64,000 bases of DNA from Flavobacterium hydatis. GTDB taxonomy: Bacteria; Bacteroidota; Bacteroidia; Flavobacteriales; Flavobacteriaceae. The notes under the pieces are model-generated. The model made no database searches and was not told the DNA's origin. It was given only the letters and a program-made list of their open reading frames with translations. This document shows positions 16,346 through 56,510 of this stretch, in pieces. Where the stretch lies: assembly GCF_000737695.1 (NCBI RefSeq), contig NZ_JPRM01000006.1:186001-250000 (forward strand), given 5' to 3'. Each line of letters starts with the position of its first letter. Position 1 is the first letter of the stretch. A program made the translations under genes and the position numbers.

Positions 16346-16365
16346 CGCATCACAAACACACAACA

Positions 16366-17514
16366 ATGAATTATTTTTCTTCTGATTTTAAATTAGGAAT
16401 CTTAGGTGGTGGACAATTAGGCAAAATGCTACTTTTTGACACTCGCAAATTTGACATACAAACCTATGTTTTAGACCCAAGCGATGAAGCTCCTAGCAAA
16501 ATTGCCTGTAACAAATTCTGTCAAGGGGATTTAATGGACTTTGAAACTGTTTACAATTTTGGAAAACAAGTAGATGTTTTGACCTTCGAAATAGAGCTTG
16601 TAAACCTCGAAGCGCTGGAAAAACTAGAAAATGAAGGCGTAAAAATATACCCTTCTCCAAAAACTTTAAGGGGTATTCAGAATAAAGGAATCCAAAAAGA
16701 TTTTTACATTAAAAACAATATTCCTACTGCTCCATTTGAAAGATTTGAAAATCTGGAAAGCTTAAAAGCTAAAATTCAAGATTTAAAATTGCCTTTTGTA
16801 TGGAAATGTACGGAATTTGGATATGACGGAAATGGTGTAAAAGTTATTCGTCAAGCTTCGGATTTAGATAATTTACCTAATGTAGAATGTATTGCAGAAA
16901 CAATGGTTCCGTTCAAGAATGAACTTGCCATTATTGTTTGTCGCAATCCATCGGGAGAAATAAAAACGTATCCTGTTGTAGAAATGGAATTTCATCCAGA
17001 GGCAAATCAGGTAGAATATGTAATTTGTCCTGCAAGAATCGACGAGAAAGTAGCTCAAAAAGCAAGAGCAATTGCGCTTAATGTTTCGGAGAAATTTAAT
17101 CATGTTGGTCTTTTAGCAGTTGAAATGTTCCAAACTCAAGACGATGAAATCTTAGTAAACGAAGTTGCTCCTCGCCCACACAATTCTGGACATTATTCTA
17201 TCGAAGCAAGTTATACTTCACAATTTGAAAATCATTTACGTGCTATATTAGATCTTCCGCTAGGAAATACCGATAGTAAAGTCGCAGGAGTTATGGTAAA
17301 CTTAGTTGGAGCCGAAGGATTCTCTGGCGATGTAGTTTATCAAAACATCGAAACTATTTTAGGATGGAACGGTGTTACACCACATATATATGGTAAAAAA
17401 CAAACCCGCCCTTTCAGAAAAATGGGTCACGTTACAATCGTAAATGGTGATATGAACGAAGCAAGAAGAATTGCCGAGGATGTTAAGAATACGATTAAAG
17501 TGATTAGTATATAG
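16366..17514 (+). CDS. purK: 5-(carboxyamino)imidazole ribonucleotide synthase
   Basis: 382 aa ATP-grasp enzyme of de novo purine synthesis: AIR + bicarbonate + ATP to N5-CAIR. N-terminal FKLGILGGGQLGKMLLFD Rossmann-type start, ATP-grasp core (LPFVWKCTEFGYDGNGVKV, ELAIIVCRN) and the family motif NEVAPRPHNSGHYSIEAS. Works with PurE, encoded 360 bases downstream after a 71-aa ORF. Length is normal. Confidence 0.96.
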   Translation: MNYFSSDFKLGILGGGQLGKMLLFDTRKFDIQTYVLDPSDEAPSKIACNKFCQGDLMDFETVYNFGKQVDVLTFEIELVNLEALEKLENEGVKIYPSPKTLRGIQNKGIQKDFYIKNNIPTAPFERFENLESLKAKIQDLKLPFVWKCTEFGYDGNGVKVIRQASDLDNLPNVECIAETMVPFKNELAIIVCRNPSGEIKTYPVVEMEFHPEANQVEYVICPARIDEKVAQKARAIALNVSEKFNHVGLLAVEMFQTQDDEILVNEVAPRPHNSGHYSIEASYTSQFENHLRAILDLPLGNTDSKVAGVMVNLVGAEGFSGDVVYQNIETILGWNGVTPHIYGKKQTRPFRKMGHVTIVNGDMNEARRIAEDVKNTIKVISI

Positions 17515-24714: not shown

Positions 24715-26565
24715 TTATTTTAATTTTGGTAAATTTCCCATATTTGTAGGCAATGCACGAATTTCACTAAATATATGACTTATCCCATTCTTATTTCTTG
24801 GATCTAGTGAATAGCCATGACAATATAAACAAGAAGTAACTGCTCTACTACCACTACTAGGATCTGCATTCGAGCTCGGTGCCTGAAAAAAAGTTTCCAT
24901 TGTAGTGTTTGCTAATCGTCCGGTACCAATCGCATTTCCTGGAGTTGGTGGAGTCCCATTATAAGGATATGAATAACCATTTGGCACAACACCTCCAGCA
25001 GTCCATGTAGCTCCTATTAGTAGATAATTTTTCCTAATATCATTACCAACCAACATTTTGCGTACCGCATTATTAATAGAGATAACTTCACTATTAGAGT
25101 TTGCAGGTGTTTTATCTTCTTCATTTGGTATCGTATCAGAAGCAACACCCCAAGCCATAATTCTTCTTACTTTAGAACTACTAAGCGCAGGATCTACAAT
25201 TTTAATTACATCAGTATTAAGTGTATCATTAACTACTGTCATATTCTGGATATTTTGTCCTCCTACAGTATCATTTGCATTATCATTAAAAAGCCATCCT
25301 TTACCAGTATCTCCTTTTACTTGCTTTACTTTACCATTAACATCTGTGTATGAATATGCTGTATTTGGTGCATTTTTTAGATGCTCGAAAGTTGCCCAAA
25401 TCATTTCAGGATGCCCAGCAACACTTCCTACCACATGCATTCCCACCAATGCTAATGTTGTTACGGTTGTCTTATCTGTTAATTTCCAAAGTTTAGGATC
25501 TGTCTTGTCATACACCGGAACTTTAGCTTTAATTGTAATATAAGTTTCTGCATTTGGCAAATCCTTAGCTTCAACCCAAGATGTTTTTAATTCCATTGCC
25601 AAAGCATCCGGGTCTGGTGGTGCCGCAAAACCTTTCAATTTTGCATAAGCAAGAATACTGTCTCGTGCAGCTGCAGTTGTTGGAAATTCTTTTGCTTTTA
25701 ATCCTTTATCTCCTTTATCTTTTATACCAGTCAAGAAGTAAGCATAAACATCATTTACCATTGTTATATAATAAACTAATGAATTATTGCTCGCAACTAA
25801 TGCTCCGCTAGACCCCGCCTGTCCTTGTTCTGTATCAATTATATTTCCTTTTGAGTCAAGAAGAATCGTTTTATTTCCCTCTTTAAATTCCTGTACAATA
25901 TTTTCAGGATGAACTTTACCAGCAATTATTGCTTTAGGACTTGAAATTACTTTGCCTTTTATATCTACAAAAGAATGTAATCCATTGGCATTGGCAACTA
26001 TTTTACCTACAACAACAGATTTATTTCCAGCATCTTTAACGGCTTCATTCTTTTCTTGAGGTTCTACTTCAAACATTTTCCCGCTTTTATCAAACACAAT
26101 CGGTAATCTATTTGGTCCTGTTTGCTCAATATTACCTACCGCACTCATTATAGTATTTGGTGCATGAGGAGTCAATACACGATTTCCGTTTTTATCTGCT
26201 GCCGAAACATTATAAAACACAGGAGATTCCATTACAGTTCCTCCACTTTTATATGAACCACTAGAAGTTGGTGAGGTAATCCATAAAAACATCTGTTCTG
26301 ACCATTTATAAAAATCACAATTGTTATTATGAGGGAATGTTACACTATTTGCAGGCTCAACTAATCCGTTTTCTGTGACTGTTCCGCCCTTAAACCAAGT
26401 TTTAAATTCGGCTTCAGTAACAACACAAGACTGTTTTACATCTTGTGGCAAATATTCATAATCTTTATCTGTATTAGACAACAAATCTGTTTTCTTACAT
26501 CCTAAAAAAAGGAGCATTCCAATTGCAATAAATGCAATACTGGTTTTTATATTCAATTTTCTCAT
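24715..26565 (-). CDS. Lipoprotein with C-terminal c-type heme motif
   Basis: 616 aa. Signal peptide and lipobox MLLFLGC (Cys23). Long central region without a recognised enzyme motif but with the strongly patterned segment MHVVGSVAGHPEMIWATFEH. The single CXXCH heme-attachment site CLYCH is at residues 579-583, with Met609 a candidate sixth ligand. Likely membrane-anchored on the periplasmic side or at the surface and electron-carrying. It follows the 87-aa gene by 106 bases on the same strand and is the last gene of the accessory leftward block. Function in the block unknown; the heme site is the only clear biochemical clue. Confidence 0.72.
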   Translation of the reverse strand: MRKLNIKTSIAFIAIGMLLFLGCKKTDLLSNTDKDYEYLPQDVKQSCVVTEAEFKTWFKGGTVTENGLVEPANSVTFPHNNNCDFYKWSEQMFLWITSPTSSGSYKSGGTVMESPVFYNVSAADKNGNRVLTPHAPNTIMSAVGNIEQTGPNRLPIVFDKSGKMFEVEPQEKNEAVKDAGNKSVVVGKIVANANGLHSFVDIKGKVISSPKAIIAGKVHPENIVQEFKEGNKTILLDSKGNIIDTEQGQAGSSGALVASNNSLVYYITMVNDVYAYFLTGIKDKGDKGLKAKEFPTTAAARDSILAYAKLKGFAAPPDPDALAMELKTSWVEAKDLPNAETYITIKAKVPVYDKTDPKLWKLTDKTTVTTLALVGMHVVGSVAGHPEMIWATFEHLKNAPNTAYSYTDVNGKVKQVKGDTGKGWLFNDNANDTVGGQNIQNMTVVNDTLNTDVIKIVDPALSSSKVRRIMAWGVASDTIPNEEDKTPANSNSEVISINNAVRKMLVGNDIRKNYLLIGATWTAGGVVPNGYSYPYNGTPPTPGNAIGTGRLANTTMETFFQAPSSNADPSSGSRAVTSCLYCHGYSLDPRNKNGISHIFSEIRALPTNMGNLPKLK

Positions 26566-27245: not shown

Positions 27246-27659
27246 TTATGACAATTGCTCTTTTAAGCTTGGTAAAGCAGTTACTGGTACTTTTTCTATA
27301 TCATGTTGATAATATGAAAAACCTCCTGTTCCATTCCATGCATTATCTATTGCAAAATGTGCATTGAAATTGGCTAAAAAAGCACCTATTCCCGGAGGAG
27401 AAACCGCATGAACATATTGACCATGAAGACCAACTACTTTAGTAAAGGGTCCGAATCCTGTTGCATATATTTTTCCTTTTACCTGAACAACAATATGACT
27501 ATCAGGACCAGCGATTGCTTGTGTAATTACTACTGTACCTGTCACTGAATGTTGCGATGGTACAACTACTAAACTAAATTTTGCAATAGGCGCACCTGGC
27601 GTTCCTACATTTCCAATTGTGCCATTTGCTAAATAAGCACCTTCTAATAAATTTGACAT
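27246..27659 (-). CDS. DUF1842 domain protein
   Basis: 137 aa, no signal peptide. The pattern GTPGAPIAKFSLVVVPSQHS, VTGTVVITQAI, HIVVQVKGKIYATGFG and YVHAVSPPGIGAFLANFNAHF matches my knowledge of the DUF1842 family (predicted beta-sandwich, often found with DUF1843). Function unknown. It starts 27 bases after the stop of the 611-aa gene; the linking sequence is a copy of the repeated leader element also found before the genes at 36130 and 36646. Terminator follows. Confidence 0.75.
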   Translation of the reverse strand: MSNLLEGAYLANGTIGNVGTPGAPIAKFSLVVVPSQHSVTGTVVITQAIAGPDSHIVVQVKGKIYATGFGPFTKVVGLHGQYVHAVSPPGIGAFLANFNAHFAIDNAWNGTGGFSYYQHDIEKVPVTALPSLKEQLS

Positions 27660-27679
27660 AATTTTTTGATTTAGATTTT

Positions 27680-27738
27680 CTTACTCTTAAGGCTTTTCAG
27701 AAACCGCCTCGTTTTTTTTAGTGGGTTCTGCTCCACTT
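27680..27738 (-). repeat. Repeated leader element, copy A
   Basis: Minus strand: AGTGGAGCAGAACCCACTAA, then GGCGG.TCTGAAAAGCCTTA and GAGTA, 22 bases before the DUF1842 ATG. Overlaps the last codons of the 611-aa gene (…SEKP). Related to copies B (36971-37053) and C (36323-36383). Confidence 0.7.
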
Positions 27739-29522
27739 TCTATTATAATTTTATCTTTCTTTGAAGCTCCAACGCTTATCTTCACATTTACATAACCTTT
27801 GTTGTCTGTTAGACCTGCTCCATAAATTCCTTTCAAATCATCGTTGATGCATAATTCTAACTTTCCAACGAGTCCCGGTGGCGTACTTGCCTCCAACCCG
27901 ATTAAGAAAACTGTATCCCCGACTTTACCAACAAGTGCACCCTCGTTTGCGTTTGGAAGAGCATATCCTGGTTTTGCACTAATAAAAGTTGGATTTCCAG
28001 CTGAATTGTATTGTCTACCGTTATTGATATTTGGGTTTGCAGTCCATAAACCATCTACATACTTTATAGTTGCAACTCTGCTGGGATTCAATCTAATACC
28101 TGTATCAAGCCAAGGATTCGCATTCTTATTATCAGGTGGAATAGGGTTTCCTAATACTTTAAAATCACTAGGTGGAACTGCAAAATTGCATGCTGGAATT
28201 GGCGCCGTGAATTCCTCATAATCAAAATAATCTGCCAAGGCAAGACTGGTTCCTTGACCTACACCTGATTGTGATTGCATAAATGTTATTGGTCTGCTGC
28301 TGGTTCCACTTCCATTCTGAGGGCTGTACCAAGTCCACAAATAGGTGGAATCTGGATAATTATTTCCTGAAGGTGGAAAAAGCACTCCTACTACAGTAAC
28401 TCTTCTGTCTGGACAAAGTACTGGATTACTAATAATCGTTGCCTGAATTCTTCCTTGTACAGCTGGAATTTGAACCCAATTTGGTGGTTGTTGAGGGAAT
28501 GGAAAGTTTCCGAAACCAAGAACATTTGTTATTTTATCACCAAAATAATTTATTAGAAAACCAGCACCGCTGTTAGCCGGTGGCGTTGTTCCGCTTGGAG
28601 CTGGTCCTGTAAGAAGCGCTTGTTGGGAAGTAAATTTATTTTGGGGATTGTATGTATATTTCATCAATGTGCTCTGACTCCTATCAGAAGAAACGCGGTA
28701 TTGTGCATCAGTTCTCCAGTTGTATAAAACTCTTGTAGGCAAAGGACTGAAAGCTTGGTTAACAGGTGTCATAAAAACAGTCATCCCAAAATTTGTATTC
28801 CATGTAAATAGCTCATATCTATTAGGATTTCCAAAAGAATAGCCCTCTATCGCCGGAGGCACCAGAGGAGAATTTAACGGATTACTCGTTAGTTTCTCAA
28901 AAGTGGGGAAATAGGTAAAAGAAAACATTTGAAAAAGTGCCAACTGATTAACGTCTCCCATACCAGGAGATGCAACAGGTCCTTGCCCGAACATAAGACG
29001 CACTGGAAAATTGGTATTGTGATCAAACCACATCCAGGTGGCAGGTGCCGGATCGCTATTACCAACCGGAATTTTCCACCAATCTACTTTCTGTGCTTTC
29101 ATCCAGTTCAGGTAACTAGTTCCTGAACATTTAGCTTTATTGCTTTCATTTCCAAACCAGTTTGTAGTTGGAACTTTCCAGCCTACATTTATCGGTGTAT
29201 AACGACTTCCGTCTGTAGATATTTCCGTTTGAGTTGGCGTTACTCTATACCACCATCTTCTGCCGGAGCTACCTACTAAAAGAGCATTTAGTCCAATTCC
29301 TTCTGCATAATAAACAGTGGCGGTACAAATTTCAAAAAATGGACTTGCAAGATCTGCAGGTGTACTATTACTTTGAGGGGGACTAAAAGGGTGAAGCAAA
29401 CAAGTACATTTCCAATATTGTGGGAGTTTAGGTTGAGGGCCTGTAAAAGGCTCCAAAACAGGATATCTTGAATCTGATATCGGATCAACACATGGTGTCG
29501 AAGAAGTAGATAAATCTTTCAT
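27687..29522 (-). CDS. Large hypothetical protein with PA-IL/LecA-like C-terminal domain
   Basis: 611 aa without signal peptide. Residues 1-500 are rich in Pro, Trp, Asn, Gly and aromatic residues (KVDWWKIPVGNSDPAPATWM, WTWYSPQNGSGTSS), suggesting an extracellular-type or structural beta protein. Residues about 520-595 (NEGALVGKVGDTVFLIG, GKLELCINDD, YGAGLTDNKGYVNVKISV) resemble the galactose-binding PA-IL (LecA) fold core (GALVxKIG...IxLxYND...NNSGxxxVxI). The last residues SGAEPTKKNEAVSEKP recur in the repeat before the gene at 36646. Visibly richer in G/C than neighbours. Followed by DUF1842 27 bases on. Carbohydrate binding is inferred only. Confidence 0.68.
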   Translation of the reverse strand: MKDLSTSSTPCVDPISDSRYPVLEPFTGPQPKLPQYWKCTCLLHPFSPPQSNSTPADLASPFFEICTATVYYAEGIGLNALLVGSSGRRWWYRVTPTQTEISTDGSRYTPINVGWKVPTTNWFGNESNKAKCSGTSYLNWMKAQKVDWWKIPVGNSDPAPATWMWFDHNTNFPVRLMFGQGPVASPGMGDVNQLALFQMFSFTYFPTFEKLTSNPLNSPLVPPAIEGYSFGNPNRYELFTWNTNFGMTVFMTPVNQAFSPLPTRVLYNWRTDAQYRVSSDRSQSTLMKYTYNPQNKFTSQQALLTGPAPSGTTPPANSGAGFLINYFGDKITNVLGFGNFPFPQQPPNWVQIPAVQGRIQATIISNPVLCPDRRVTVVGVLFPPSGNNYPDSTYLWTWYSPQNGSGTSSRPITFMQSQSGVGQGTSLALADYFDYEEFTAPIPACNFAVPPSDFKVLGNPIPPDNKNANPWLDTGIRLNPSRVATIKYVDGLWTANPNINNGRQYNSAGNPTFISAKPGYALPNANEGALVGKVGDTVFLIGLEASTPPGLVGKLELCINDDLKGIYGAGLTDNKGYVNVKISVGASKKDKIIIESGAEPTKKNEAVSEKP

Positions 29523-29774: not shown

Positions 29775-30971
29775 TCATCTCAAATCTAACAATATTGGTG
29801 TTTTTGTAGTATTAGGATCTATATATAATTGAGCTGCAGTAACTAACAAAACTTCGACTTTCATAGAACCTCCATCATAATGCAAAAATTCTTTTAAGTC
29901 GGCACATTTTTGCTCAACAAAATCCTCTCTTTGATTTTTAGATACATTTTGAACAATTAACATTCTAACAACATCTTTAAAAAATTCATCGGTAGACAAT
30001 TGAATCTGAAAAGTATCTGCATCGCTTACAAGAGAAATTATGTCATCTAAATCAAAATGTTCTTCTGCAACTATAAAAGATTTAGTTTCTCTGGATTTTA
30101 ATTCCAAAAAGCTCTTTCCATTTAATTCTATCAATCGTCCTAAATCGCCTATGGCATATCTAAAAACAGGAAACCTTTTACGGAATGTATTGGTAACTGC
30201 AATTGTACCATATCCGTCTTTATCAGGATTTATAATTTCGACTATAATACCTTTTATAATTGAGAATAATGATGGATTTTTAGTAAAATTTGACCAAGCC
30301 CAAATTCCAGTTTCGGCTGAACCATACATGGAATAAACTTGTTGAACTCCGAAAGTCTTTTGCAAAAGCTTTTGAATATTGGGTCTTAGAAATTCGCCTG
30401 CGTAAAGCAAATTTTCTATTTCTAATTTTCTATTATTTTCTTCTAAATATTTTGCAAAACATAATAATTTAGAAGGTGTTCCAAATATAAAATTTGGCTT
30501 AAAATAATTGGCTGCCTTTTCTACATCACTATAACTTGCATGTGCACTCAATGGTAGTGTTGTGGCCTGACATTTTTCTAAAATATCATCCATAATTGCT
30601 GCAGTGCGATACATATCTGAATAACCAAAAATGTTTAAAGCAATTGTTTCTGGAGTAAAAAAGTTATTTTTTGTTAATTCGCCCGCCATTACAAGACGCT
30701 GGTTATGATTTTCTTGTATATCAACCGGAAATATTAAAGGCTTCTGACTGCTACCGCCTGAGCGTACTAAATACACTCCTTTTTTTTCTTCTTCAAGTTT
30801 AAACTTTGTATTTAAAATAGGTATTAACTCTTTTTTACTTAGCATTGGTGCATCAATAGCATAATCATTTCCTTTATAAAAATCGCTGTATAAAGGATTC
30901 TGTTTTGCTAATTCAAAATAATCTTGTAATACTGAGTTGTCTATTTCTGGAGAGATATAAGCTGGATACAT
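29775..30971 (-). CDS. ANL-superfamily adenylating enzyme (PaaK/F390 synthetase-like)
   Basis: 398 aa. AMP-binding fold with the phosphate loop VRSGGSSQKP at residues 69-78, the YGSAETG adenine/acyl motif at 216-222, and FRYAIGDLGRL as the ribose-binding Asp motif. Size and motifs fit phenylacetate-CoA ligase/coenzyme F390 synthetase-like proteins. It would activate a carboxylate as acyl-adenylate in the cytoplasm. Last gene of the nine-gene leftward run; 11 bases after the GT2 gene. Substrate unknown; context suggests a carboxylate linked to a peptide or cofactor. Confidence 0.82.
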   Translation of the reverse strand: MYPAYISPEIDNSVLQDYFELAKQNPLYSDFYKGNDYAIDAPMLSKKELIPILNTKFKLEEEKKGVYLVRSGGSSQKPLIFPVDIQENHNQRLVMAGELTKNNFFTPETIALNIFGYSDMYRTAAIMDDILEKCQATTLPLSAHASYSDVEKAANYFKPNFIFGTPSKLLCFAKYLEENNRKLEIENLLYAGEFLRPNIQKLLQKTFGVQQVYSMYGSAETGIWAWSNFTKNPSLFSIIKGIIVEIINPDKDGYGTIAVTNTFRKRFPVFRYAIGDLGRLIELNGKSFLELKSRETKSFIVAEEHFDLDDIISLVSDADTFQIQLSTDEFFKDVVRMLIVQNVSKNQREDFVEQKCADLKEFLHYDGGSMKVEVLLVTAAQLYIDPNTTKTPILLDLR

Positions 30972-30982
30972 AGTTTCTTATT

Positions 30983-31897
30983 TTATTTACTTCTTCTTTT
31001 TAAATAATAACCGTTTTTAATTAAGATCCCGAAATGATTTAAAACAAATAGAGTTTTTTGTTGCCAGGACGGTAGTCGCTCCATTGCATGTTCTAACCAT
31101 CGTTGTGACAACATTCCCATTAATTGCTGATCGTATCGATTAGCACTTTCTTTATATCGTTTTATTGAAAAAGGAATTTCTAATGCTGCCCAATTTGTGT
31201 AACGACTTCCAGATAAACTTCCTTCTACTTCTCTTACTTCTATACAAACTTTATTCAGTAATCCAACCCGAGCCTGTTGTGGCAAATTTTTTAAAATGCG
31301 ATACCAAAAATCAATTCCTTCATTTAAAGAAACATTAATTTCATAACGAATGTCTTGCAGGTATTTTTTTTGGATTACAACATTACTGCCAACTCCCATA
31401 ATAAAATCTGGTGAACTAACAGTATGCAATGGATTGGGTATTAAAAATAATTCATTGGAAAGCGGAGTTAATTCAGTTTCAAATGATTTTATCTCTGGTA
31501 GATATTCATCGGATGGGACTAAGACAATTCCAAGTATTAAAACAGCTATATTTTCTTGTTCTATAATTGAACTAACATCACTTAAACAAGAAGAGGTATA
31601 ACAATCGTCTGCATCCAAAAAACTTATAAGATCTCCTGTTGCAAGTTCTATCCCAATATTTCTTGCATTACTCGGTCCTTTATTTTCCTCCAATTCAATA
31701 ACCTGAATATCGGTTTGCAAAAATTGTGGTGCAAAAAATGATAATGAATCTTTTAAATAAACTAAACTTTGATCTGTGCTAAAATCATCTATAACAATAA
31801 TTTGTGATGCTTTTTTATCCTGAAAAGCCAAGGAACGAATCGTATCGTATATATAAGCTTCCTTATTGTAAAGAGGTATAACAACTGTATGTTCCAT
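30983..31897 (-). CDS. Glycosyltransferase family 2
   Basis: 304 aa. GT-A fold: VVIPLYNKEAYIYDTIRSL, IIVIDDFSTDQSL, then the metal-binding ISFLDADD at about residues 93-100. The C-terminal third is helical and cationic. Transfers a sugar from a nucleotide sugar to an unknown acceptor in the cytoplasm. Between the ANL gene (11-base gap) and the ATP-grasp-like gene (19-base gap), so translationally and transcriptionally tied to the radical-SAM cluster; its acceptor may be the modified peptide. Confidence 0.88.
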   Translation of the reverse strand: MEHTVVIPLYNKEAYIYDTIRSLAFQDKKASQIIVIDDFSTDQSLVYLKDSLSFFAPQFLQTDIQVIELEENKGPSNARNIGIELATGDLISFLDADDCYTSSCLSDVSSIIEQENIAVLILGIVLVPSDEYLPEIKSFETELTPLSNELFLIPNPLHTVSSPDFIMGVGSNVVIQKKYLQDIRYEINVSLNEGIDFWYRILKNLPQQARVGLLNKVCIEVREVEGSLSGSRYTNWAALEIPFSIKRYKESANRYDQQLMGMLSQRWLEHAMERLPSWQQKTLFVLNHFGILIKNGYYLKRRSK

Positions 31898-31916
31898 GAT
31901 GTTTCATCATTTTATA

Positions 31917-33146
31917 TTACTCTAATACCGGATAAATCAAAGCTCTGCCTTGATGTACGTTTACAATCGACTCATCTGAACCTCGAAAAAAACCAGCTCC
32001 GTAATTTTTGTCATCTTTGCATAACAACATTCCTACTAGATGAATCTGACGATTATTTTCGGCATCATTAAACTCCTTTTGATCAACAAAATGCTGAATG
32101 AGATATTTATTCCAGTTTTTTCTAACAATAGTATTCCAGTCTTCGCTTGTACAATCACTTTTAACATAAGCCCCAATTCCTCTTCCGCCGCTATTTAATT
32201 TTAAAATCAAATTTTCTTTACTCGCGGTAAAAGCATCGCAGCCATCATCATTAGTAATAACAAAACTCGGAATAAGGTAATCTTGCAAAAAATCATAATC
32301 CTCTTGGCTTAAATAATCTCTCATTATTTGAGCATCGTACATTACAGCCAAAACTCTTTTGTCATGAATTAAAATTAAGGTTCGGATATCATTAAAATAA
32401 GCGTTTGTCTCGATTAACTTATCCATTACATCTGGACTTATTTTCTTTAGTTCTTCGCGATCCATCTCTAATATAAATTGCGAAATCGGTATTCCGTTTA
32501 CGTATATTAAATCATCTACCACAACTAAATCCTGAGGTCTTGCCGAAATTAATTCGATTTGAAATTTTGCTAATTCTTTCTGAACATAAAAAATATCACT
32601 CCCTTTTTCGTCATCATGAATAATCGCTACTTTTTTATGAGAAGCTAATTGATGATGCAAATCGCCTATAAGATTTTTTAAATCCGCATTTTCAGTACTT
32701 ACGTTACTTTTATATGCGTCTATCTGATTGTTTATTAATTGTAAATAATAACTAATCATCCAACCGTTTAGAGAATATCGCGCTCCTATTTCACAAATTT
32801 TGACCTGATTGTTTGTGTCATATAAAAAATCAGGGCGATAAAAACCCTGATTATATGGTTTTCCATTACTTTTTTTCAATAAAGCTTCCAGGTCTTTGCC
32901 TAATTGATAATATTCTCGAATTCTTTCGTCTTCAAAATAATTCAAAACAATTGCCGCACAAGCTTTATTTAAAATAGTACATAAGCGATTCATTTCTTTG
33001 CTATATTCTGAAGAAACGATTACCGAAGAATTAGCAAAAGAGTTAGTATCTAATCCTCCCCTGCCTTTTTGAAAATATTCAGGAAATAACTGATTCCATT
33101 TTTCATGTTTATCAGCTTGGTTTTGCTGCAGCTTAATTTTAGACAT
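31917..33146 (-). CDS. ATP-grasp-like (circularly permuted type) enzyme
   Basis: 409 aa. RPDFLYDTNNQVKICEIGAR near residue 105, LILKLNSGGRGIGAYV near 315 (ATP-grasp glycine-rich loop with preceding Lys) and the C-terminal AGFFRGSDESIVNVHQGRAL resemble the glutathionylspermidine-synthase/circularly permuted ATP-grasp group, which forms amide or peptide bonds through acyl phosphates. Cytoplasmic. Flanked by the GT2 and heme-oxygenase-like genes. Could form an amide on a peptide or small-molecule product; the family assignment is by motif only. Confidence 0.65.
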   Translation of the reverse strand: MSKIKLQQNQADKHEKWNQLFPEYFQKGRGGLDTNSFANSSVIVSSEYSKEMNRLCTILNKACAAIVLNYFEDERIREYYQLGKDLEALLKKSNGKPYNQGFYRPDFLYDTNNQVKICEIGARYSLNGWMISYYLQLINNQIDAYKSNVSTENADLKNLIGDLHHQLASHKKVAIIHDDEKGSDIFYVQKELAKFQIELISARPQDLVVVDDLIYVNGIPISQFILEMDREELKKISPDVMDKLIETNAYFNDIRTLILIHDKRVLAVMYDAQIMRDYLSQEDYDFLQDYLIPSFVITNDDGCDAFTASKENLILKLNSGGRGIGAYVKSDCTSEDWNTIVRKNWNKYLIQHFVDQKEFNDAENNRQIHLVGMLLCKDDKNYGAGFFRGSDESIVNVHQGRALIYPVLE

Positions 33147-33190
33147 AATAATTAGGAGTTTATTTTCAAGAATTATTATTAGAATATGCT

Positions 33191-34003
33191 TTAAAAACTA
33201 AGCTCTTCTACTTCCATAAGATCTACCATTACGGCAGATTTCTTAGCTAAATAATCTTTAATGATTCCTTCTAATTCATACGCTTCAAGATCAACATTCA
33301 TTGCCTTGGCATAATAAAAAATAGAACTCACTGCAAAAAAGAAATGATTTTTTTCAGTTGGACCACAATGAACACTTATCCATGCCAATGCTTTGTCGCA
33401 TTCCTCTTCTGAGAAACCGTAATCATTTTTCAACCACGATTCAAATTTTGGCAATATATACTCTACTTCCCCATGAGTATAAATTTCGTGTATCAGAGTA
33501 GTCAATAAAGCAATCATTATATCTTTATTTCGCAATGAGTTTTGATCTTTCCATCCTTTAAAATCACAAGCACTTTGATTTAGATATCTACGCGAAAGCC
33601 AGTCATCGTCTGTACAAATAGTAGTTGCCATAGTATAAAATAATTGCGAATGCAAAATTCTGCCTACAACTGCCAGATCTTCATCTACAATTCTATTTAA
33701 ACTAGTAATGGATTGCAATAGCGCTCTTTCATCTGCGATTGGCTGGTTTTTATGAACTAGCATTGTCATACGATTGCTAATTCCTGCAACTGTCATTGCG
33801 CTATTATTGGTTTGGCTCCAACTATGAAAAAAACGTTGTAACCTATCCTTATCTTGTACTTTTGATGTCAATTGATTAAAACTTTTTTCAATTTTCGAAA
33901 ATGATTCTTCCTGAACTGGCAAGAATTTTAATAATTGATCTTTTAAATATGATTCTTCCATTCCTTCTAGAACCGGAAGAATAATTGAACTTAAATTAGC
34001 CAT
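33191..34003 (-). CDS. Helical protein, possible heme-oxygenase-like diiron enzyme
   Basis: 270 aa, almost wholly alpha-helical. Candidate metal ligands in a heme-oxygenase-like (PqqC/TenA/HDO) arrangement: Glu108, His118, Glu173/His177/Glu179 (LIHEIYTHGEVEYILPKF), and His212-Glu217-His220 (VHCGPTEKNHFFFA). That family includes non-heme diiron oxidases that desaturate, hydroxylate or cleave amino-acid-like substrates. Gaps of 44-47 bases to both neighbours in the run. The assignment is tentative; a purely structural helical protein is the alternative. Confidence 0.5.
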   Translation of the reverse strand: MANLSSIILPVLEGMEESYLKDQLLKFLPVQEESFSKIEKSFNQLTSKVQDKDRLQRFFHSWSQTNNSAMTVAGISNRMTMLVHKNQPIADERALLQSITSLNRIVDEDLAVVGRILHSQLFYTMATTICTDDDWLSRRYLNQSACDFKGWKDQNSLRNKDIMIALLTTLIHEIYTHGEVEYILPKFESWLKNDYGFSEEECDKALAWISVHCGPTEKNHFFFAVSSIFYYAKAMNVDLEAYELEGIIKDYLAKKSAVMVDLMEVEELSF

Positions 34004-34050
34004 GATTATTTCGATTTTAAATTGTTGTCTGATTTTAACTTTGATGAGTA

Positions 34051-34629
34051 TTAATTAGCAAATTTGGAGCGGTAATATTTAATTTTTCTGATAACATCAA
34101 TGTCTTTAAGGTGATATTGTTCTAACCAATTGGCTTCATCAAAAAAAGCACATTGAGATTCCGCAATTACAATAATGGTCTTCTTTAAAGAGATCTGATA
34201 TAGTTTATCTAATAATTCAGCATATTGAAAATCATAAAGAGGATTATATAAATAAAAAACATTTCCATCAGAAATATCGGTCTTTAAAATATCGCCAGAA
34301 GTTACCGTAACATTGGTGATTTCTTCTTTCTTGATTAAATCAATACAAACTTTATTTCGCTCTTCGAGAATTTCAATTCCTTTAAACTGAACATTTGGAT
34401 ATTTTACCGCGCCATATAAAATAATATTCCCATAGCCTGAACCTAAATCATAAAATATCGTTTTGTCTGTGATAGGAATGGGATCAAAAAGATTATCTAA
34501 AAAACTAGAGGATCCATATCTGTAAGAGTTTAAACCATACTTTATAGTAATTTCCGACAGGCTTAATCCTTCTTCAATATGTTGCGAATACCGATCAATT
34601 TCTGATTGAATATTTTTTAACTGCTCCAT
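34051..34629 (-). CDS. Class I SAM-dependent methyltransferase
   Basis: 192 aa. SAM-binding motif I IFYDLGSGYGNIILYGA near residues 58-74, acidic motif II FKGIEILEERN, post-motif VTSGDILKTDISDG and the catalytic-region motif FYLYNPLYD. The NP[LP]Y-type sequence and fold resemble DOT1-like and N-methyltransferase groups. Starts one base after the radical SAM stop, so the two are tightly coupled. Substrate unknown; likely the same product as the radical SAM enzyme. Confidence 0.85.
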   Translation of the reverse strand: MEQLKNIQSEIDRYSQHIEEGLSLSEITIKYGLNSYRYGSSSFLDNLFDPIPITDKTIFYDLGSGYGNIILYGAVKYPNVQFKGIEILEERNKVCIDLIKKEEITNVTVTSGDILKTDISDGNVFYLYNPLYDFQYAELLDKLYQISLKKTIIVIAESQCAFFDEANWLEQYHLKDIDVIRKIKYYRSKFAN

Positions 34630-34630
34630 A

Positions 34631-36055
34631 TTATTTCATCATTAATAATTCTAATTTTTCCAGCGTTTGTTTTGCTCTTTCCATTTTAGCTGCATATTCA
34701 TCGTTTACTTTCTGAACATCGGCATTACAAAAACTGCAAACTGTTTCTTCTTCGTAAACATAATTATCACATCCGTTGCATAATTTAAGTGCTTTGGGGA
34801 TTCTCGGAATTCTGGCCGAATAATCTGGAACTAAAACTGGAGTTTCACTATTTGGTGATTGTATTTCTACTATTACTCCATTTTCATCTTCAACAATAAT
34901 TTCAAAAAGTCCCATATCAAAAGATACACCTGGTGCTTCTTGTATTTTTCTTATGCGTTCTTTAAGACCTTTCTTTTTTAGTTCTAAAGCACGATGATGA
35001 CAAAAAGGATTATTCCCTCTCTTACCAAACAAAACATGGCTTGTCCAGGTACATCCTGCTAAACAAGAAGACTCATAATAGCAACCTTTGCAGCCGCCCC
35101 ATAATTCTTCTTTATTTCTATATCTGGAAAAAACCATTTCTTCGCTATACTTCCAAATATCTTCCAGATCCATATCTTTAACATTTCCTCCTGTGTAGGC
35201 GCTTGTTGGTAATGACGGACATCCTTTAATTTTTCCATCTGCCTCAATCCCTATTCCTGTATGTCCTGCTGAACATCCTGTATAATATTTTTCATTTCCT
35301 TGTCTCCAAATATGTTCATACGGTCCAAAATAACCAATGTTATTCCCTGCCTGTATCAAGATATTATGTGCTAAAGCTTTTCTGTATATTACAATAAGAT
35401 CGTCGTAAAAATCTATTAATTCATAAGGCTGAACTATTAATTCATCTGAATTATCTACGGCATTTCCCATGGCAACTGCAAGTTGTATTTGCCAGTTCTT
35501 TACATCATTTTCTATTAGAATATCTAAAAGCTCATTCAGCTCATTTTTGCTTCTTTTTGTAATTACTGTGTTTACACTAGAAGTTATATTATGTTTTTTT
35601 AGCAATTGCAAGCAATTAACTGCATGCTCAAAAGAATCTCTTCTTCCTCTTATTTTATTATGTGTATCGGGCATCCCATCGATGGAAACTCCAATATTAT
35701 TTATCCCTGCTTTTTTAGCATCAATAATTCGCTCTTCGTTTAAATTATAGGCACCAGATTGCATAGAACATTCAATCCCGCTTTGATGTATTCTTTCGAT
35801 AATTTCAAGCCAGTCTTTTCTTAAAAAAGCTTCTCCACCAATAATGGAAATTTCTCTTGTACCAAGACGTTTAAGACTATCAATAACACCAAAACATTGT
35901 TCTGTAGTTAATTCTCCAGGTCTTACTTTTCCTGCTCTGGATCCGCAATGTGAGCATTTCAAATTACATGCTAAAGTAATTTCCCATACTACATGAACCG
36001 GAGTAGCTGTTTCATAATCATCTCTTACTCTGTATCGTGTTGAAGTCTTGTCCAT
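34631..36055 (-). CDS. Radical SAM/SPASM peptide maturase-like enzyme with C-terminal zinc ribbon
   Basis: 474 aa. Radical SAM cluster CxxxCxxC at Cys30/34/37 (LACNLKCSHCGSR), GGEAFLRKDW next, then a SPASM domain with Cys261, 279, 322, 325, 331, 335 and 352 that can ligate two auxiliary Fe-S clusters, and a C-terminal zinc-ribbon-like Cys426/429/440/443. SPASM enzymes usually install C-C or C-S crosslinks on ribosomal peptides or modify quinohemoprotein subunits. Directly downstream of two DUF1843 small ORFs across an attenuator-like hairpin, which makes them candidate substrates. I recall a named NCBI family of SPASM maturases associated with GDL-motif peptides; membership is not checked. 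Confidence 0.88.
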   Translation of the reverse strand: MDKTSTRYRVRDDYETATPVHVVWEITLACNLKCSHCGSRAGKVRPGELTTEQCFGVIDSLKRLGTREISIIGGEAFLRKDWLEIIERIHQSGIECSMQSGAYNLNEERIIDAKKAGINNIGVSIDGMPDTHNKIRGRRDSFEHAVNCLQLLKKHNITSSVNTVITKRSKNELNELLDILIENDVKNWQIQLAVAMGNAVDNSDELIVQPYELIDFYDDLIVIYRKALAHNILIQAGNNIGYFGPYEHIWRQGNEKYYTGCSAGHTGIGIEADGKIKGCPSLPTSAYTGGNVKDMDLEDIWKYSEEMVFSRYRNKEELWGGCKGCYYESSCLAGCTWTSHVLFGKRGNNPFCHHRALELKKKGLKERIRKIQEAPGVSFDMGLFEIIVEDENGVIVEIQSPNSETPVLVPDYSARIPRIPKALKLCNGCDNYVYEEETVCSFCNADVQKVNDEYAAKMERAKQTLEKLELLMMK

Positions 36056-36082
36056 CTTAATTTCATTTATGGTTAATTGATT

Positions 36083-36127
36083 AAAAAAACGGCTTAAAAA
36101 GTAAAACTTAATAAACCGTCTTTTTTA
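36083..36127 (-). terminator. Attenuator-like terminator between peptide genes and the radical SAM gene
   Basis: Minus strand: stem GACGGTTTATTAAG / CTTTTTAAGCCGT (8 pairs including one wobble, a 2-nt internal mismatch, 3 more pairs) followed by T7 at 36082-36088. Sits in the 74-base gap after the second small peptide gene, so it can lower read-through into the enzyme genes. Confidence 0.7.
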
Positions 36128-36129
36128 GA

Positions 36130-36303
36130 TTACTTTTTCTTTTTCAAAGTATCAATTGCATCAAGCAATTCTACCAATGCTACATGCAAATCTTTTTGAT
36201 CTCTTATGGTTTTCTTAGCTTGTTCAGCTACTGCAACCATTTTTTCTAAATCATTTGAAGCTATCGCTTCTCTGATTCCTACTCCGTAAAGTACTGTTGC
36301 CAT
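36130..36303 (-). CDS. DUF1843-type small peptide 1 (candidate precursor)
   Basis: 57 aa read directly from the sequence: starts MATVLYGVGIREAIASNDLE, then a helical body with DQKDLHVALVELLDAIDTLK and Lys4 at the end. This is the DUF1843 pattern (LYGVxIREAIxxxDLxKM). ATG 36303, TAA 36130-36132. About 60% identical to the next ORF. Preceded by repeated leader element C, followed by the attenuator hairpin. No Cys; a maturase would have to act on Asp/Leu/Lys or similar residues, or the peptide may bind rather than be modified. Confidence 0.8.
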   Translation of the reverse strand: MATVLYGVGIREAIASNDLEKMVAVAEQAKKTIRDQKDLHVALVELLDAIDTLKKKK

Positions 36304-36322
36304 AATATCTTGTGTTTATAGT

Positions 36323-36383
36323 TATTCCTACTCTTTAGGTTTTTCAGATACCCCCTTGTTTTTCTGTACAAGTCAGTTTATTT
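36323..36383 (-). repeat. Repeated leader element, copy C
   Basis: Minus strand: ACTGACTTGTACAGAAAAAC, GGGGGTATCTGAAAAACC, TAAAGAGTAGGA, 25 bases before the ATG of peptide 1. In one frame it reads …GVSEKPKE-stop, matching the SEKP tails of copies A and B. Confidence 0.65.
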
Positions 36384-36554
36384 TTTCTTTTTTAAAGAAT
36401 CTATCGCGTCTAGCAAGTCTAGTAAAGCTACAGTTAGATCTCCTTGGTCTTTTATGGTTTGCTTTGCCTGTTTAGCAACAGCCTCCATCTTAGCCAAATC
36501 ATTTGATACTAAAGCTTCTCTAATAGCGACACCATAAGGCATAATTATTCCCAT
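36378..36554 (-). CDS. DUF1843-type small peptide 2 (candidate precursor)
   Basis: 58 aa: MGIIMPYGVAIREALVSNDL, then AKMEAVAKQAKQTIKDQGDL and a tail TVALLDLLDAIDS + LKKKK. Tandem paralogue of peptide 1 (same YGV.IREA, NDL.KM, DQ.DL..AL..LLDAID.LKKKK). ATG at 36554; an internal ATG (Met5) gives MPYGV and cannot be excluded. First or second gene of the leftward run with peptide 1 and the radical SAM enzyme. Confidence 0.8.
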   Translation of the reverse strand: MGIIMPYGVAIREALVSNDLAKMEAVAKQAKQTIKDQGDLTVALLDLLDAIDSLKKKK

Positions 36555-36645
36555 CGTTATAGTTTTTAATACTAATTATTGTTTAACTTCATGACTAATA
36601 ACTTTTGTACGTTATGTATCATGTAAAGAAATCATTGTAGTTGCC

Positions 36646-36957
36646 CTACTGACCCAATGTTATTGTTCTTCCAAATTGTGAATCATCACTAACATTTGTA
36701 CAAAACATCCACTCAGTAGTAAAACGAGTACCATCTTCATTCTCTCCCGTTGCTACATATTTATGATGGATATTAAGTTGTGGTTTGTGGCTTTCTAAAT
36801 TAAGATTATAGAATAAAGATCTTCCAAGTGTACCAAAACCATAGGTTCCACTAGCTCCTTCAATAACAGGAAGAATAACAGGTCCAACGCCTCCACCATT
36901 CCATTCAACATAAGGATACACATTCACATTTTTTACTTTTACAGGTATTGCTTGCAT
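36646..36957 (-). CDS. Small hypothetical protein opening the accessory cluster
   Basis: 103 aa from ATG 36957 (MQAIPVKVKNVNVYPYVEWN). A longer frame from 36981 starts inside leader element B, and comparison with copies A and C puts the real ATG at 36957. Predicted beta-rich, with GGGVGPVILPVIEGASGTYG and NLNLESHKPQLNIHHKYVAT. No family firmly recognised; possibly a divergent DUF1842 relative by position and beta pattern, unproven. Followed by 91 bases and then the two DUF1843 peptides. Confidence 0.62.
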   Translation of the reverse strand: MQAIPVKVKNVNVYPYVEWNGGGVGPVILPVIEGASGTYGFGTLGRSLFYNLNLESHKPQLNIHHKYVATGENEDGTRFTTEWMFCTNVSDDSQFGRTITLGQ

Positions 36958-36970
36958 AATAATAGTTTTT

Positions 36971-37053
36971 GTCCTACTCATAAGGCTTTTCAGATCCGCC
37001 TCCGCTTTGTACTGTGCGAAACAGTCCGTTTATTTTAGTGGGTTCTGCTCCAC
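36971..37053 (-). repeat. Repeated leader element, copy B
   Basis: Minus strand: same AGTGGAGCAGAACCCACTAA and GGCGGATCTGAAAAGCCT blocks as copy A, separated here by 24 extra bases that include ACTGTTTCGCACAGT (small palindrome). Ends 14 bases before the ATG at 36957. Reads SGAEPTK…SEKPYE-stop in one frame but has no ATG start. Confidence 0.7.
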
Positions 37054-37130
37054 TCAATTTAATGAGTTAGCTGAATCATTTAAAAATCAAAAACTATTAT
37101 AAATGATAGATTTAGGGCTAACTTCTATTT

Positions 37131-42761: not shown

Positions 42762-43577
42762 TTATCCATAAAACTCAACCATCATCCACCAAAAAATCGG
42801 AATACTTTCGACCCAGAAAGAAGTATAATATTTAGGTCTTTTTTCATTTGCAAAAACAATGAAAAGGGATAACACAAGAACCATGATTAAATTTATCACC
42901 AATTGATTTTTATCAAGATTTAGTCTTAAAAACTCCAAAAAATAAAACGGAATTAAAAGCGATAGTCCCAAAATCTTAGTTCGCTTTACTCCTATTTGCT
43001 GAGGAACAGTTTGCAAATGCGGATCATCATTTGCCAAATCGATAATCTCAAAAATTAATATTAGTACAAAAACCAAGATAAAACGCTGTACACATTTTAA
43101 ATAAAAATCAGAAGTAAAAGCAATTTCAGCATTTATTAATGGTAAAACCAAAGTGGCTCCAACCCAACAAAGTGAAACTATATATATTTTGACCCCAGCC
43201 CAATTTCTAGCATTTTTTCTATTAGGAAAAAAAGGAAGTGTATAAAGCGCCGTAATAGCAAGAATTCCAACCGAAACAATTTGTGTTATTTGATGTAATT
43301 GAAAAAAATAATATCCAACCAACAAAAGGGAACAAAAACTAGAAACAGCAATAATTTTTAATTGGTTGCCTATTGGCGCTCTGTTTACACGAACTAAGGC
43401 ATCGTATTTTACAAAATTATATCCTACAATGGTCCCGAAAAATGCGAACAAAGCCATTGACTCATCATACTCAATACCAAACATATGGAACGTTAATCGC
43501 ACCAAAGCATAACATGATAAAGCAACGTGAATACTGCTATTGATATAAAAATTAAATAACTGTGTAACTACCTTCAT
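42762..43577 (-). CDS. UbiA-like prenyltransferase family membrane protein
   Basis: 271 aa with about 7-8 hydrophobic helices. EIIDLANDDPHLQTVPQQIGVKR matches the second aspartate-rich segment of UbiA (DxxD then KT[LI]P), while the first NDxxD-type motif is degenerate (NFVKYDALVRVNR). A membrane prenyltransferase fold is likely; activity and substrate uncertain. Convergent with the DUF1090 gene, divergent from gcvP. Confidence 0.68.
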   Translation of the reverse strand: MKVVTQLFNFYINSSIHVALSCYALVRLTFHMFGIEYDESMALFAFFGTIVGYNFVKYDALVRVNRAPIGNQLKIIAVSSFCSLLLVGYYFFQLHQITQIVSVGILAITALYTLPFFPNRKNARNWAGVKIYIVSLCWVGATLVLPLINAEIAFTSDFYLKCVQRFILVFVLILIFEIIDLANDDPHLQTVPQQIGVKRTKILGLSLLIPFYFLEFLRLNLDKNQLVINLIMVLVLSLFIVFANEKRPKYYTSFWVESIPIFWWMMVEFYG

Positions 43578-43673
43578 ATAACAAAACTAATCAATTAATA
43601 AGAAATCAACCCTTTAGTTGTAAATTTGATAAAAAATGCAATAAAAAATAGCTATTAAATTATTAATAATACT

Positions 43674-43681
43674 TAATTTTG
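43674..43681 (+). promoter_or_regulatory. -7 box of gcvP (TAATTTTG)
   Basis: Exact TAnnTTTG 30 bases before the gcvP ATG; its position rules out the TTG-initiated extension at 43679. Confidence 0.6.
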
Positions 43682-43711
43682 CACCACAAAAAACAACACT
43701 TTTACTACTAT

Positions 43712-55679: not shown

Positions 55680-56255
55680 ATGAAAAACTTATTACTATTA
55701 CTTACAGTAATTTTAACTTTGCAATTCACAGAGGTAACGGCTCAAAAATCTTTCGATATTGATGGCGTTACTGTTCCAAGAACAATGCAATTTCAAAGCA
55801 AGACATTATCCTTAAATGGTGCTGGTGGAAGATCAAAAATGTGGTTAGAGGTATATGTTCAAGCGCTGTATTTATCGCAATTAAGCCAAGATCCGAAATT
55901 TATTATTGATAGTGATACCGAAATGGCTATTCGAATTGAGATTACTTCTTCGATGGTATCATCAAACAAATTGACAAAAGCCATGAATAGTGGTTTCGAA
56001 AAATCGGCTGGAGATAATCTGGAAGCGTTACGCCCAAGAATCGAACAATTTAAAAGTTTTTTAAGTGATGAAATCACCCAAAAAGATGTTTTTAAACTTA
56101 TCTACTATCCTATCGACTCATCTGTCTGGGTTTATAAAAATGATGTTCTGAAAGGAAAGGTTCAAGGTTTTGACTTCAAAAAAGCACTATTCGGAATCTG
56201 GTTATCAGACAAACCTGCTGATGAAAAATTAAAAAATCAACTATTAGGTAAATAA
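55680..56255 (+). CDS. Secreted chalcone-isomerase-like protein, copy 1
   Basis: 191 aa. Signal peptide MKNLLLLLTVILTLQFTEVTAQ, then the chalcone-isomerase-like fold: IDGVTVPRTMQFQSKTLSLN, GRSKMWLEVYVQALYLSQLS, TEMAIRIEITSSMVSS, FKLIYYPIDSSVWVYKN, FKKALFGIWLSDKPAD. The bacterial members are periplasmic and probably bind fatty-acid-like ligands rather than isomerise flavonoids. First of three tandem paralogues with the same length and their own promoters; about 75% identical to copy 2. Confidence 0.88.
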   Translation: MKNLLLLLTVILTLQFTEVTAQKSFDIDGVTVPRTMQFQSKTLSLNGAGGRSKMWLEVYVQALYLSQLSQDPKFIIDSDTEMAIRIEITSSMVSSNKLTKAMNSGFEKSAGDNLEALRPRIEQFKSFLSDEITQKDVFKLIYYPIDSSVWVYKNDVLKGKVQGFDFKKALFGIWLSDKPADEKLKNQLLGK

Positions 56256-56488: not shown

Positions 56489-56510
56489 CAAAAAATTAAA
56501 ATTCAATAAA

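Follow-up and report, generated by a model that had tools for sequence, protein, structure and literature searches.

A DUF1843–radical SAM maturase cassette joined to a separable enzyme module in Flavobacterium hydatis

In the PlpXY splicease system, PlpX, which is assigned to InterPro class IPR026482, is described as excising tyramine at Xaa-Tyr-Gly together with PlpY (PMC11002830); the natural sites are reported as Met-Tyr-Gly and Leu-Tyr-Gly (PMC10533398), and protease inhibition is stated for spliceotide products in papers citing Scott 2022 (PMC10373908, PMC11117315). The GDL-motif maturases form an NCBIfam family, and a 2025 paper lists a Chromobacterium subtsugae operon of DUF1842, DUF1843 and maturase genes, whose expression is reported there to rise with quorum sensing (PMC12114271); in Burkholderia thailandensis entering stationary phase, genes for DUF1842 and DUF1843 are likewise among those listed as up-regulated (PMC12322963). 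One DUF1842-DUF1843 protein has been crystallised, and its structure as reported is partly solved and unexplained, with the DUF1843 part not seen and no higher-order assembly (PMC10994174); the phrase "radical SAM" is absent from the text of that paper. Among the matches listed in our literature search, which did not cover Scott 2022 or Haft and Basu 2011, no paper linked DUF1843 to a splicease. The E-64 pathway, as described, comprises the oxygenase Cp1A, the ATP-grasp enzyme Cp1B and the ANL amide synthetase Cp1D (PMC12568646). Here we analyse a gene cluster of Flavobacterium hydatis in which a DUF1843-maturase cassette stands beside a relative of Cp1B; the window analysed is a stretch of 64,000 nucleotides (contig NZ_JPRM01000006.1, positions 186,001 to 250,000), and all positions refer to it unless another locus is named.

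The original prediction had described this locus as an uncharacterised cluster of nine leftward genes with small gaps. Nine leftward open reading frames (ORFs) are present at 29775-36957, with gaps of 91, 74, 74, 1, 47, 44, 19 and 11 bases from the first gene, preB, to the last, encoding an ANL adenylating enzyme, but the cluster proved wider than this range: it takes in a DUF1842 gene farther left (27246-27659), as well as RNA leaders. Nor is it wholly uncharacterised in kind, given the NCBIfam family and the published operon. The locus is a variant of that known cassette, joined to a separable enzyme module. We favour, with moderate confidence, a reading in which two parts are joined here: a splicease-like DUF1843 maturation cassette (part A) and a separable small-molecule module (part B). 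The F. hydatis genome is 5.88 Mb, and its cluster maturase is nearest to Flavobacterium maturases. The features of part A, in the order of transcription and followed by the DUF1842 gene, are:

36967..37058, minus strand: DUF805-like cis-regulatory RNA leader ahead of preB (39.6 bits against a gathering score of 51.1, E 1.7e-4; sub-threshold)
36646..36957, minus strand: preB, 103 aa from an internal ATG; the ORF could start at 36981
36378..36554, minus strand: pepA, 58-aa DUF1843 protein (PF08898 43.2 bits, above cut-off)
36531..36539, minus strand: pepA Pro-Tyr-Gly codons (residues 6-8), predicted modification site in Y-X10-NDL (sequence and column conservation)
36325..36357, minus strand: DUF805b cis-regulatory RNA leader ahead of pepB (Rfam RF02914 36.9 bits, gathering 35.6)
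36130..36303, minus strand: pepB, 57-aa DUF1843 protein (PF08898 42.8 bits, cut-off 23.3)
36283..36291, minus strand: pepB Leu-Tyr-Gly codons (residues 5-7), predicted modification site (sequence and column conservation)
34631..36055, minus strand: radical SAM/SPASM maturase, 474 aa, assigned to the Bacteroidota branch of GDL-motif maturases (TIGR03913 and TIGR04103 scores; tree)
34727..34780, minus strand: maturase C-terminal four-cysteine zinc-ribbon-like motif, residues 426-443 (alignments)
34051..34629, minus strand: methyltransferase dependent on S-adenosylmethionine (SAM), 192 aa (PF02390 and PF08123 above cut-off)
27674..27741, minus strand: DUF805 cis-regulatory RNA ahead of the DUF1842 gene (RF03081 68.3 bits, gathering 51.1)
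27246..27659, minus strand: DUF1842 protein, 137 aa (PF08896 67.4 bits)

By sequence comparison, the radical SAM enzyme is a member of the Bacteroidota branch of GDL-peptide maturases. It scores 535.3 bits against TIGR03913 over residues 3-471 of 474, short of the curated cut-off of 591.75, and 420.1 bits against TIGR04103, short of 725, after which the next family falls to 163.5 bits; the mycofactocin and PqqE models score 119.5 and 109.9, some 300 bits below TIGR04103, which we take to be the PlpX class IPR026482. The same two families rank first for all six other enzymes compared (from Nostoc, Aureibacter, Symploca, Pseudomonas, Mucilaginibacter and Tropicibacter), those of Aureibacter (534.9 bits) and Mucilaginibacter (518.4 bits) likewise lying below the TIGR03913 cut-off and those of Pseudomonas (1024 bits) and Symploca (729 bits) above it. 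With 853 bits against TIGR04103 (cut-off 725), the Nostoc enzyme of that family shares 45.7% identity with the window maturase over 82% of the latter, and it adjoins a Nif11 precursor that has Leu-Tyr-Gly close to the end. The window enzyme matches the Radical_SAM (96.3 bits) and SPASM (28.6 bits) domains; its radical SAM CxxxCxxC cysteines (C30, C34, C37) and SPASM-region cysteines (C261, C279, C322, C325, C331, C335, C352) are invariant in 10/10 aligned maturases, and the C-terminal CxxC...CxxC, the zinc-ribbon-like motif that the original prediction called a zinc ribbon, is kept in nine of the ten, the Nostoc TIGR04103 enzyme being without it. The 14 Bacteroidota members form one group (support 100/100) in a tree of 42 maturases, hand-chosen from those collected and subject to a long-branch warning. 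TIGR03913 at E 0.001 was too permissive as a search, matching in all 14 control genomes and in 100/199 genomes; of its matches only the window's own is meaningful (534.8 bits; next 59.6).

Both short peptides of the window lie above the Pfam cut-off for DUF1843, as predicted. In an alignment of 186 distinct DUF1843 domains, 185 span the column of one particular Tyr and 184 of these have it; the column is the most conserved of all (4.27 bits; next 3.79). The residue before it is Leu (114), Pro (62) or Met (9), and the residue after it Gly (104), Ala (78), Met (2) or Asp (1); the window proteins read PYG (pepA) and LYG (pepB). Of 80 related maturase loci, 76 carry one or more X-Tyr-Gly domains, and 55 have both Gly and Ala types. 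This conserved X-Tyr-Gly/Ala motif resembles the splicease X-Tyr-Gly site, and the maturase cassette, judged by motif and kinship, probably removes a portion of a tyrosine from a small protein. The window peptides read Y-X10-Asn-Asp-Leu, with no Gly-Asp-Leu downstream of the Tyr; NDL is found in 33/41 Bacteroidota motifs and GDL in 0/41, other taxa having mainly Gly-Asp-Leu. Cys occurs in only 4/208 DUF1843 domains. Eighty of these 208 domains sit in ORFs of more than 150 aa (78 distinct ORFs), and 76 of the 78 also hold a DUF1842-like part, two of them confirmed by Pfam, DUF1842-DUF1843 fusion being frequent in proteobacteria. The modification site would therefore be internal in these ORFs, and the whole protein seems to be edited, rather than a leader-core peptide, which agrees with the earlier remark that the DUF1843 precursor may not be a classical leader peptide.

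That DUF1843 is a partner or substrate of the SPASM enzyme, as had been suggested, is borne out by a pre-set co-occurrence test: all 25 DUF1843-bearing genomes carry a maturase alongside. Three of these had a maturase known beforehand (the window's genome and the search centres G871 and G873), and 22 were found through DUF1843. DUF1843 occurs in 12/299 same-genus genomes, the window's included, and in 3/395 genomes of the phylum sample, where it is rare (1/170 genera) and which added one new genome, making 13; searches centred on L138 and L106 found it in 10/89 Pseudomonas and 2/65 Burkholderiaceae genomes, with the maturase directly downstream in 12/12. Starting from the maturase, DUF1843 was present in 76/80 related loci at a first pass, which used Flavobacterium peptides only and missed L095, L114, L121 and L126, and in 80/80 after iteration of a hidden Markov model on those same loci; these are the best 80 of 438 maturase relatives, neither a random sample nor thinned further. 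Hosts of related maturases include Flavobacterium, Kordia, Aquimarina, Mucilaginibacter, Segetibacter, Acidobacteriota, cyanobacteria, Azospirillum, Nitrospirillum, Burkholderia relatives, Chromobacterium and Pseudomonas. On the Aureibacter plasmid pAT1, a gene for an ATP-grasp ligase of RimK type that also has a Zn-protease-like domain (L067:9643-11019, plus strand) lies directly before three DUF1843 genes.

In the mechanism that we propose, the leader-controlled small proteins (preB, pepB and DUF1842) would be produced first. The maturase would excise tyramine at X-Tyr-Gly of the DUF1843 protein (predicted mass change -135.08 Da); the recognition element is probably the conserved C-terminal helical part of DUF1843, and the zinc-ribbon-like C-terminal domain of the maturase may stand in for the partner PlpY, which is a truncated RRE. 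The methyltransferase probably acts on the same product as the maturase, and an alpha-ketoamide product suggests protease inhibition. In part B, a small acid would be oxidised, coupled and glycosylated by the enzymes described below.

Several observations weigh against this two-part reading. What argues for splicing is enzyme kinship and the motif; the maturase lies below the curated cut-offs of both TIGR03913 and TIGR04103, no PlpY-like gene stands between the maturase and methyltransferase genes, which are 1 base apart (a fused or distant equivalent is possible), and the conserved Tyr could be structural. The Ala that follows the Tyr in 78/185 domains departs from the reported splicease site Tyr-Gly, the Pro that precedes it in 62/185 departs from the prototype Met-Tyr-Gly and Leu-Tyr-Gly, and four of the 80 loci (L092, L099, L126, L136) have no X-Tyr-Gly domain. 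No RNA leader was found for pepA, even in a relaxed scan, and at the gathering score none was found in L055, L057, L064 and L065. The methyltransferase is lost along with part B in L063 and L064, which speaks against its place in part A. Since part B was probably freed by deletion in genome G302, the two parts may act together in the 17 Flavobacterium clusters that are intact.

The alternative that survives best, possible though unlikely in our judgement, is that the maturase modifies the conserved Tyr otherwise, by mycofactocin-like oxidative decarboxylation or cross-linking, by formation of a C-C or ether ring, or by a change at the beta-carbon, with no tyramine excision. An invariant Tyr followed so often by Ala, and an enzyme that falls in neither curated family by cut-off, would suit such chemistry, and the mycofactocin SPASM enzyme is also reported to act on Tyr (PMC8326336). 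The 420 bits against TIGR04103, compared with 119.5 and 109.9 against the mycofactocin and PqqE models, point away from it. So does the position of the residue: mycofactocin chemistry acts on a C-terminal Val-Tyr, whereas the DUF1843 Tyr is N-terminal or lies between two domains.

The remaining four genes of the cluster make up part B:

33191..34003, minus strand: heme-oxygenase-like diiron-oxidase-fold (HDO-like) protein, 270 aa, a fold predicted from an AlphaFold2 model and structure comparison
31917..33146, minus strand: Cp1B-like ATP-grasp ligase, 409 aa (profile and model against 9cjn)
30983..31897, minus strand: family-2 glycosyltransferase (GT2), 304 aa (PF00535 100.8 bits)
29775..30971, minus strand: PaaK-like adenylating enzyme of the ANL type, 398 aa, either a CoA ligase or an amide synthetase (9s3l 4.8e-21; NF045666 52.4 bits, cut-off 300)

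Among 19 distinct maturase-bearing Flavobacterium genomes (seven of L073-L085, with identical maturase, were dropped as repeats), DUF1843 was found in 19, preB and GT2 in 18 each, the methyltransferase, HDO, ATP-grasp and ANL in 17 each, and DUF1842 in 14. All five enzymes occur together in 17, which points to more than chance, and their gene order is constant in the ten full-set loci mapped, two of which have an extra GT2 between methyltransferase and HDO. The co-occurrence with the same tailoring genes that the original prediction had proposed to look for is seen in 17/19 maturase-bearing genomes of the genus. Outside the genus, HDO, ATP-grasp, GT2 and ANL were undetected in nine non-Flavobacterium Bacteroidota loci (E 1e-5), a distant ANL (20% identity) being found near the Segetibacter locus L092. 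Within Flavobacterium, L063 lacks the methyltransferase, HDO, ATP-grasp, GT2 and ANL, and L064 retains GT2 alone of these. In genome G302 the HDO-ATP-grasp-GT2-ANL set stands alone, with peptide, maturase and methyltransferase absent from the 19 kb examined of a 20-kb contig; this genome is not among the DUF1843-positive genomes of the same-genus sample (n=299). The set is adjoined there by apparent relatives, recognised by eye, of the genes at 42762-46561 of the window, which suggests that G302 lost the peptide half and retained the rest; part B was probably freed by deletion in this genome. The methyltransferase, for its part, adjoins the maturase without these four enzymes in 5/9 non-Flavobacterium Bacteroidota and 2/3 cyanobacterial loci, and we therefore place it with the maturase cassette, to which it probably belongs, and the other four in a second module. 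A Bacteroidota-type promoter consensus had no coding-strand match before the radical SAM, methyltransferase, HDO, ATP-grasp, GT2 and ANL genes, a result that is uninformative.

The original prediction had all the other enzymes modify the peptide, a claim that these distributions do not support. That the nine genes are one pathway, in which HDO, ATP-grasp, GT2 and ANL carry out later modifications of the DUF1843 protein, accords with the presence of all five enzymes beside the maturase in 17/19 Flavobacterium genomes, with the gaps of 11-47 bases from methyltransferase to ANL in the window and with the joint loss of methyltransferase and module in L063 and L064; it has nonetheless become improbable because of G302, where the four genes are alone, and of L063 and L064, which lack all four and all but GT2. 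The four enzymes are found in none of the nine other Bacteroidota loci, Cp1B is described as joining a small acid to an amino acid (PMC12568646), and no DUF805-type leader precedes the four genes where this was scanned. The two-part reading, with HDO, Cp1B-like ATP-grasp, GT2 and ANL as a separable small-molecule module whose putative product is deduced from its parts by analogy, agrees with these distributions.

The HDO-like protein has no match in Pfam or NCBIfam scans. Its AlphaFold2 model (predicted local distance difference test, pLDDT, 75.9; 14 sequences) compares best, by VIA-align, with CADD (8vag; Z 16.2, root-mean-square deviation 2.9 A over 199 residues), followed by UndA (15.5), HrmI (14.6), PqqC (13.8) and SznF (13.3); Foldseek ranks the same families first, none at E <=0.001 (best 3.1e-3, CADD). 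Since helical folds give middling Z values by chance, the predicted fold, which matches the helical HDO-like protein called earlier, is good but uncertain. E108, H118, E173, H212, E217 and H220 are invariant in the 14 sequences, as a candidate diiron ligand set. The enzyme called ATP-grasp-like in the original prediction finds Cp1B of E-64 biosynthesis (9cjn) at E 1.3e-14 as a profile and 5e-10 as a single sequence; its model, at a pLDDT of only 55.8, still ranks 9cjn first (Z 23.2, 4.6 A over 333 residues), with glutathione synthetases next. The methyltransferase and GT2 assignments pass Pfam cut-offs, and the ANL assignment holds in part: the AMP-binding match (22 bits) is below the Pfam cut-off of 29.9 and NF045666 is far from its own, but the profile finds the phenylacetate-CoA-ligase-type structure 9s3l. 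In the mechanism proposed above, oxidation would fall to HDO, coupling to the ATP-grasp and perhaps the ANL enzyme, and glycosylation to GT2.

ATP-grasp was detected in 4/395 phylum-sample genomes (2/170 genera), standing without other module genes in the second genus (same profiles), and HDO in 2/296. Among 72,556 plasmid records (E 1e-5) ATP-grasp is absent and HDO occurs in two, from Azospirillum B510 (L164) and Nostoc (L165; no annotation), the Azospirillum copy adjoining a major facilitator superfamily (MFS) transporter, with the GDL cassette of the same plasmid some 420 kb away. HDO relatives occur without ATP-grasp in the stretches examined from Azospirillum, Nostoc and Pseudomonas sp. 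LD120. In the last, two HDO relatives (L138:12563-13393 and 16349-17179, minus strand) lie 3-7 kb from a GDL cassette, on the opposite strand.

Three genes of the cluster, preB, pepB and the DUF1842 gene, have RNAs of the Rfam DUF805 clan ahead of them. An Rfam scan of the window placed RF03081 directly before the DUF1842 gene and RF02914 before pepB, both above gathering score, and a relaxed scan added the weaker DUF805 match before preB. Relaxed-threshold scans covered the window region and six relatives (L055, L056, L057, L060, L062, L064): similar elements stand before preB in four (L055, L056, L057, L062) and, in five (L055, L056, L057, L062, L064), before one or more of the peptide genes, L060 having the DUF1842 leader only. 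No DUF805-type leader was found before any cluster enzyme in the window and these six relatives. All ten DUF1842-bearing loci that were scanned, the window's among them, have the DUF1842 leader; eight non-Flavobacterium Bacteroidota loci showed no leader at the gathering score. The leaders probably control the expression of preB, pepB and DUF1842; our literature search found no published function for the DUF805 RNA class.

A search of the F. hydatis genome that scored 150 of 1378 first-look candidates gave three DUF805-type matches at E 0.001, of which two lie in the window and the third at C6:7314-7391 (44.1 bits); RF03081 also matched in 1/14 control genomes. The third RNA, about 7 kb from the start of C6, precedes genes for two proteins of about 95 aa with QVVKG/QVVAG (L227:2130-2414 and 2504-2794, minus strand), a QVVxG motif that is presumably cystatin/stefin-like. 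Their cystatin kinship is weak: Pfam Cystatin matches one of the two at E 0.25, below cut-off, and three PDB matches are cystatins at E 0.11-0.68. In another cluster-bearing Flavobacterium, a 620-aa tyrosinase-like protein (by eye; L056:6104-7966, plus strand) lies behind a weak DUF805-like RNA (35.9 bits, E 0.0077), and a 110-aa protein, probably beta-rich by eye, adjoins the cluster behind its own DUF805b leader in two loci (L058:12554-12886 and L059:14165-14497, minus strand).

That DUF1843 is instead a helper or recognition protein, the maturase acting on preB, DUF1842 or something else, would fit its frequent fusion to DUF1842, its several copies per cassette and the possibility that preB, DUF1842 and pepB, with leaders of one RNA clan, work together, but is very improbable, since a lone invariant Tyr, in a domain that varies elsewhere, resembles a target, preB is undetected in the loci examined outside Flavobacterium and truncated in the window and L063, and the Flavobacterium DUF1842 profile, narrow and so a weak guide, finds no DUF1842 in the nine other Bacteroidota loci (E 1e-5).

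A much bolder extension of the two-part reading, to which we give little credence, is that the whole set is an RNA-leader-marked protease-inhibitor regulon, comprising splicease-made alpha-ketoamide DUF1843 proteins, a small molecule of E-64 logic made by part B and the cystatin-like pair behind the third DUF805 RNA. If this were true, one cis-RNA class would contribute to the joint control of protease inhibitors (perhaps of cysteine proteases) that differ in their chemistry.

The small beta-rich ORF of the original prediction, preB, is present but short: 10 of the 11 mapped relatives that have it encode a protein of 217-228 aa, to whose front half the window's preB corresponds. It has no Pfam family; a relationship of preB to DUF1842 was tried and is not claimed (profile comparison probability 1.5%). 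The region between the ANL and DUF1842 genes holds one further feature:

27687..29522, minus strand: orf611, 611 aa, an optional neighbour present in 7/19 Flavobacterium genomes

No match to a known family was found for orf611 in Pfam and NCBIfam scans. Family scans recognised no protease or exporter among the nine genes, orf611 and DUF1842; the rest of the genome could hold one. Further left, a 616-aa lipoprotein-like protein (24715-26565, minus strand) ends in a CxxCHG heme-type motif and has no Pfam family, and relatives of it lie near the cluster in six other Flavobacterium genomes of the 19. At 55680-58226 (plus strand) there are three tandem 191-aa paralogues with similar N-termini, chalcone-isomerase-like by eye.

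Beyond the original prediction, the analysis adds the invariant X-Tyr-Gly/Ala site, the splicease and Cp1B kinships, the DUF1842 gene and the RNA leaders. If splicing is true, DUF1843 and DUF1842, families with no assigned function that are spread over several phyla, would be substrates of backbone-editing enzymes, and whole folded proteins, not cleaved peptides, would carry a reactive alpha-ketoamide; a Bacteroidota branch with no obvious PlpY gene may then offer a one-protein splicease for labelling. The nine-gene "pathway" divides into two modules, a Cp1B relative stands beside a predicted HDO-fold oxygenase in bacteria, and the DUF805 Rfam RNA class gains a candidate regulon.

Compared with known systems, the HDO-like protein shares its predicted fold with CADD, UndA, HrmI, SznF, BesC and PolF, and its invariant Glu/His set may correspond to theirs; it differs from them in having no detectable sequence family. 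Part B recalls the E-64 pathway in the homology of its ATP-grasp to Cp1B and in uniting an oxygenase, an ATP-grasp and an ANL enzyme in one set (PMC12568646); its oxygenase is predicted to be of HDO fold, whereas that of E-64 is described as Fe/alpha-ketoglutarate-dependent, a decarboxylase gene is absent and a glycosyltransferase is added. With the splicease PlpXY of Pleurocapsa (Morinaka 2018 and Scott 2022, as cited), part A shares a related enzyme class and X-Tyr-Gly in small partner proteins, but the position of the site is N-terminal or interdomain, not at the end of a Nif11-type leader, the maturase has a C-terminal zinc-ribbon-like extension, and Ala is also allowed after the Tyr. The closest system is the GDL cassette (TIGR03913, PF08898, PF08896), which likewise has DUF1843 proteins encoded directly upstream of a SPASM maturase, the same cysteine pattern, the invariant Tyr and the DUF1842 partner; relative to it, the window maturase scores under the cut-off, Asn-Asp-Leu replaces Gly-Asp-Leu, and the cluster adds preB, the methyltransferase, the HDO-to-ANL module and the RNA leaders.

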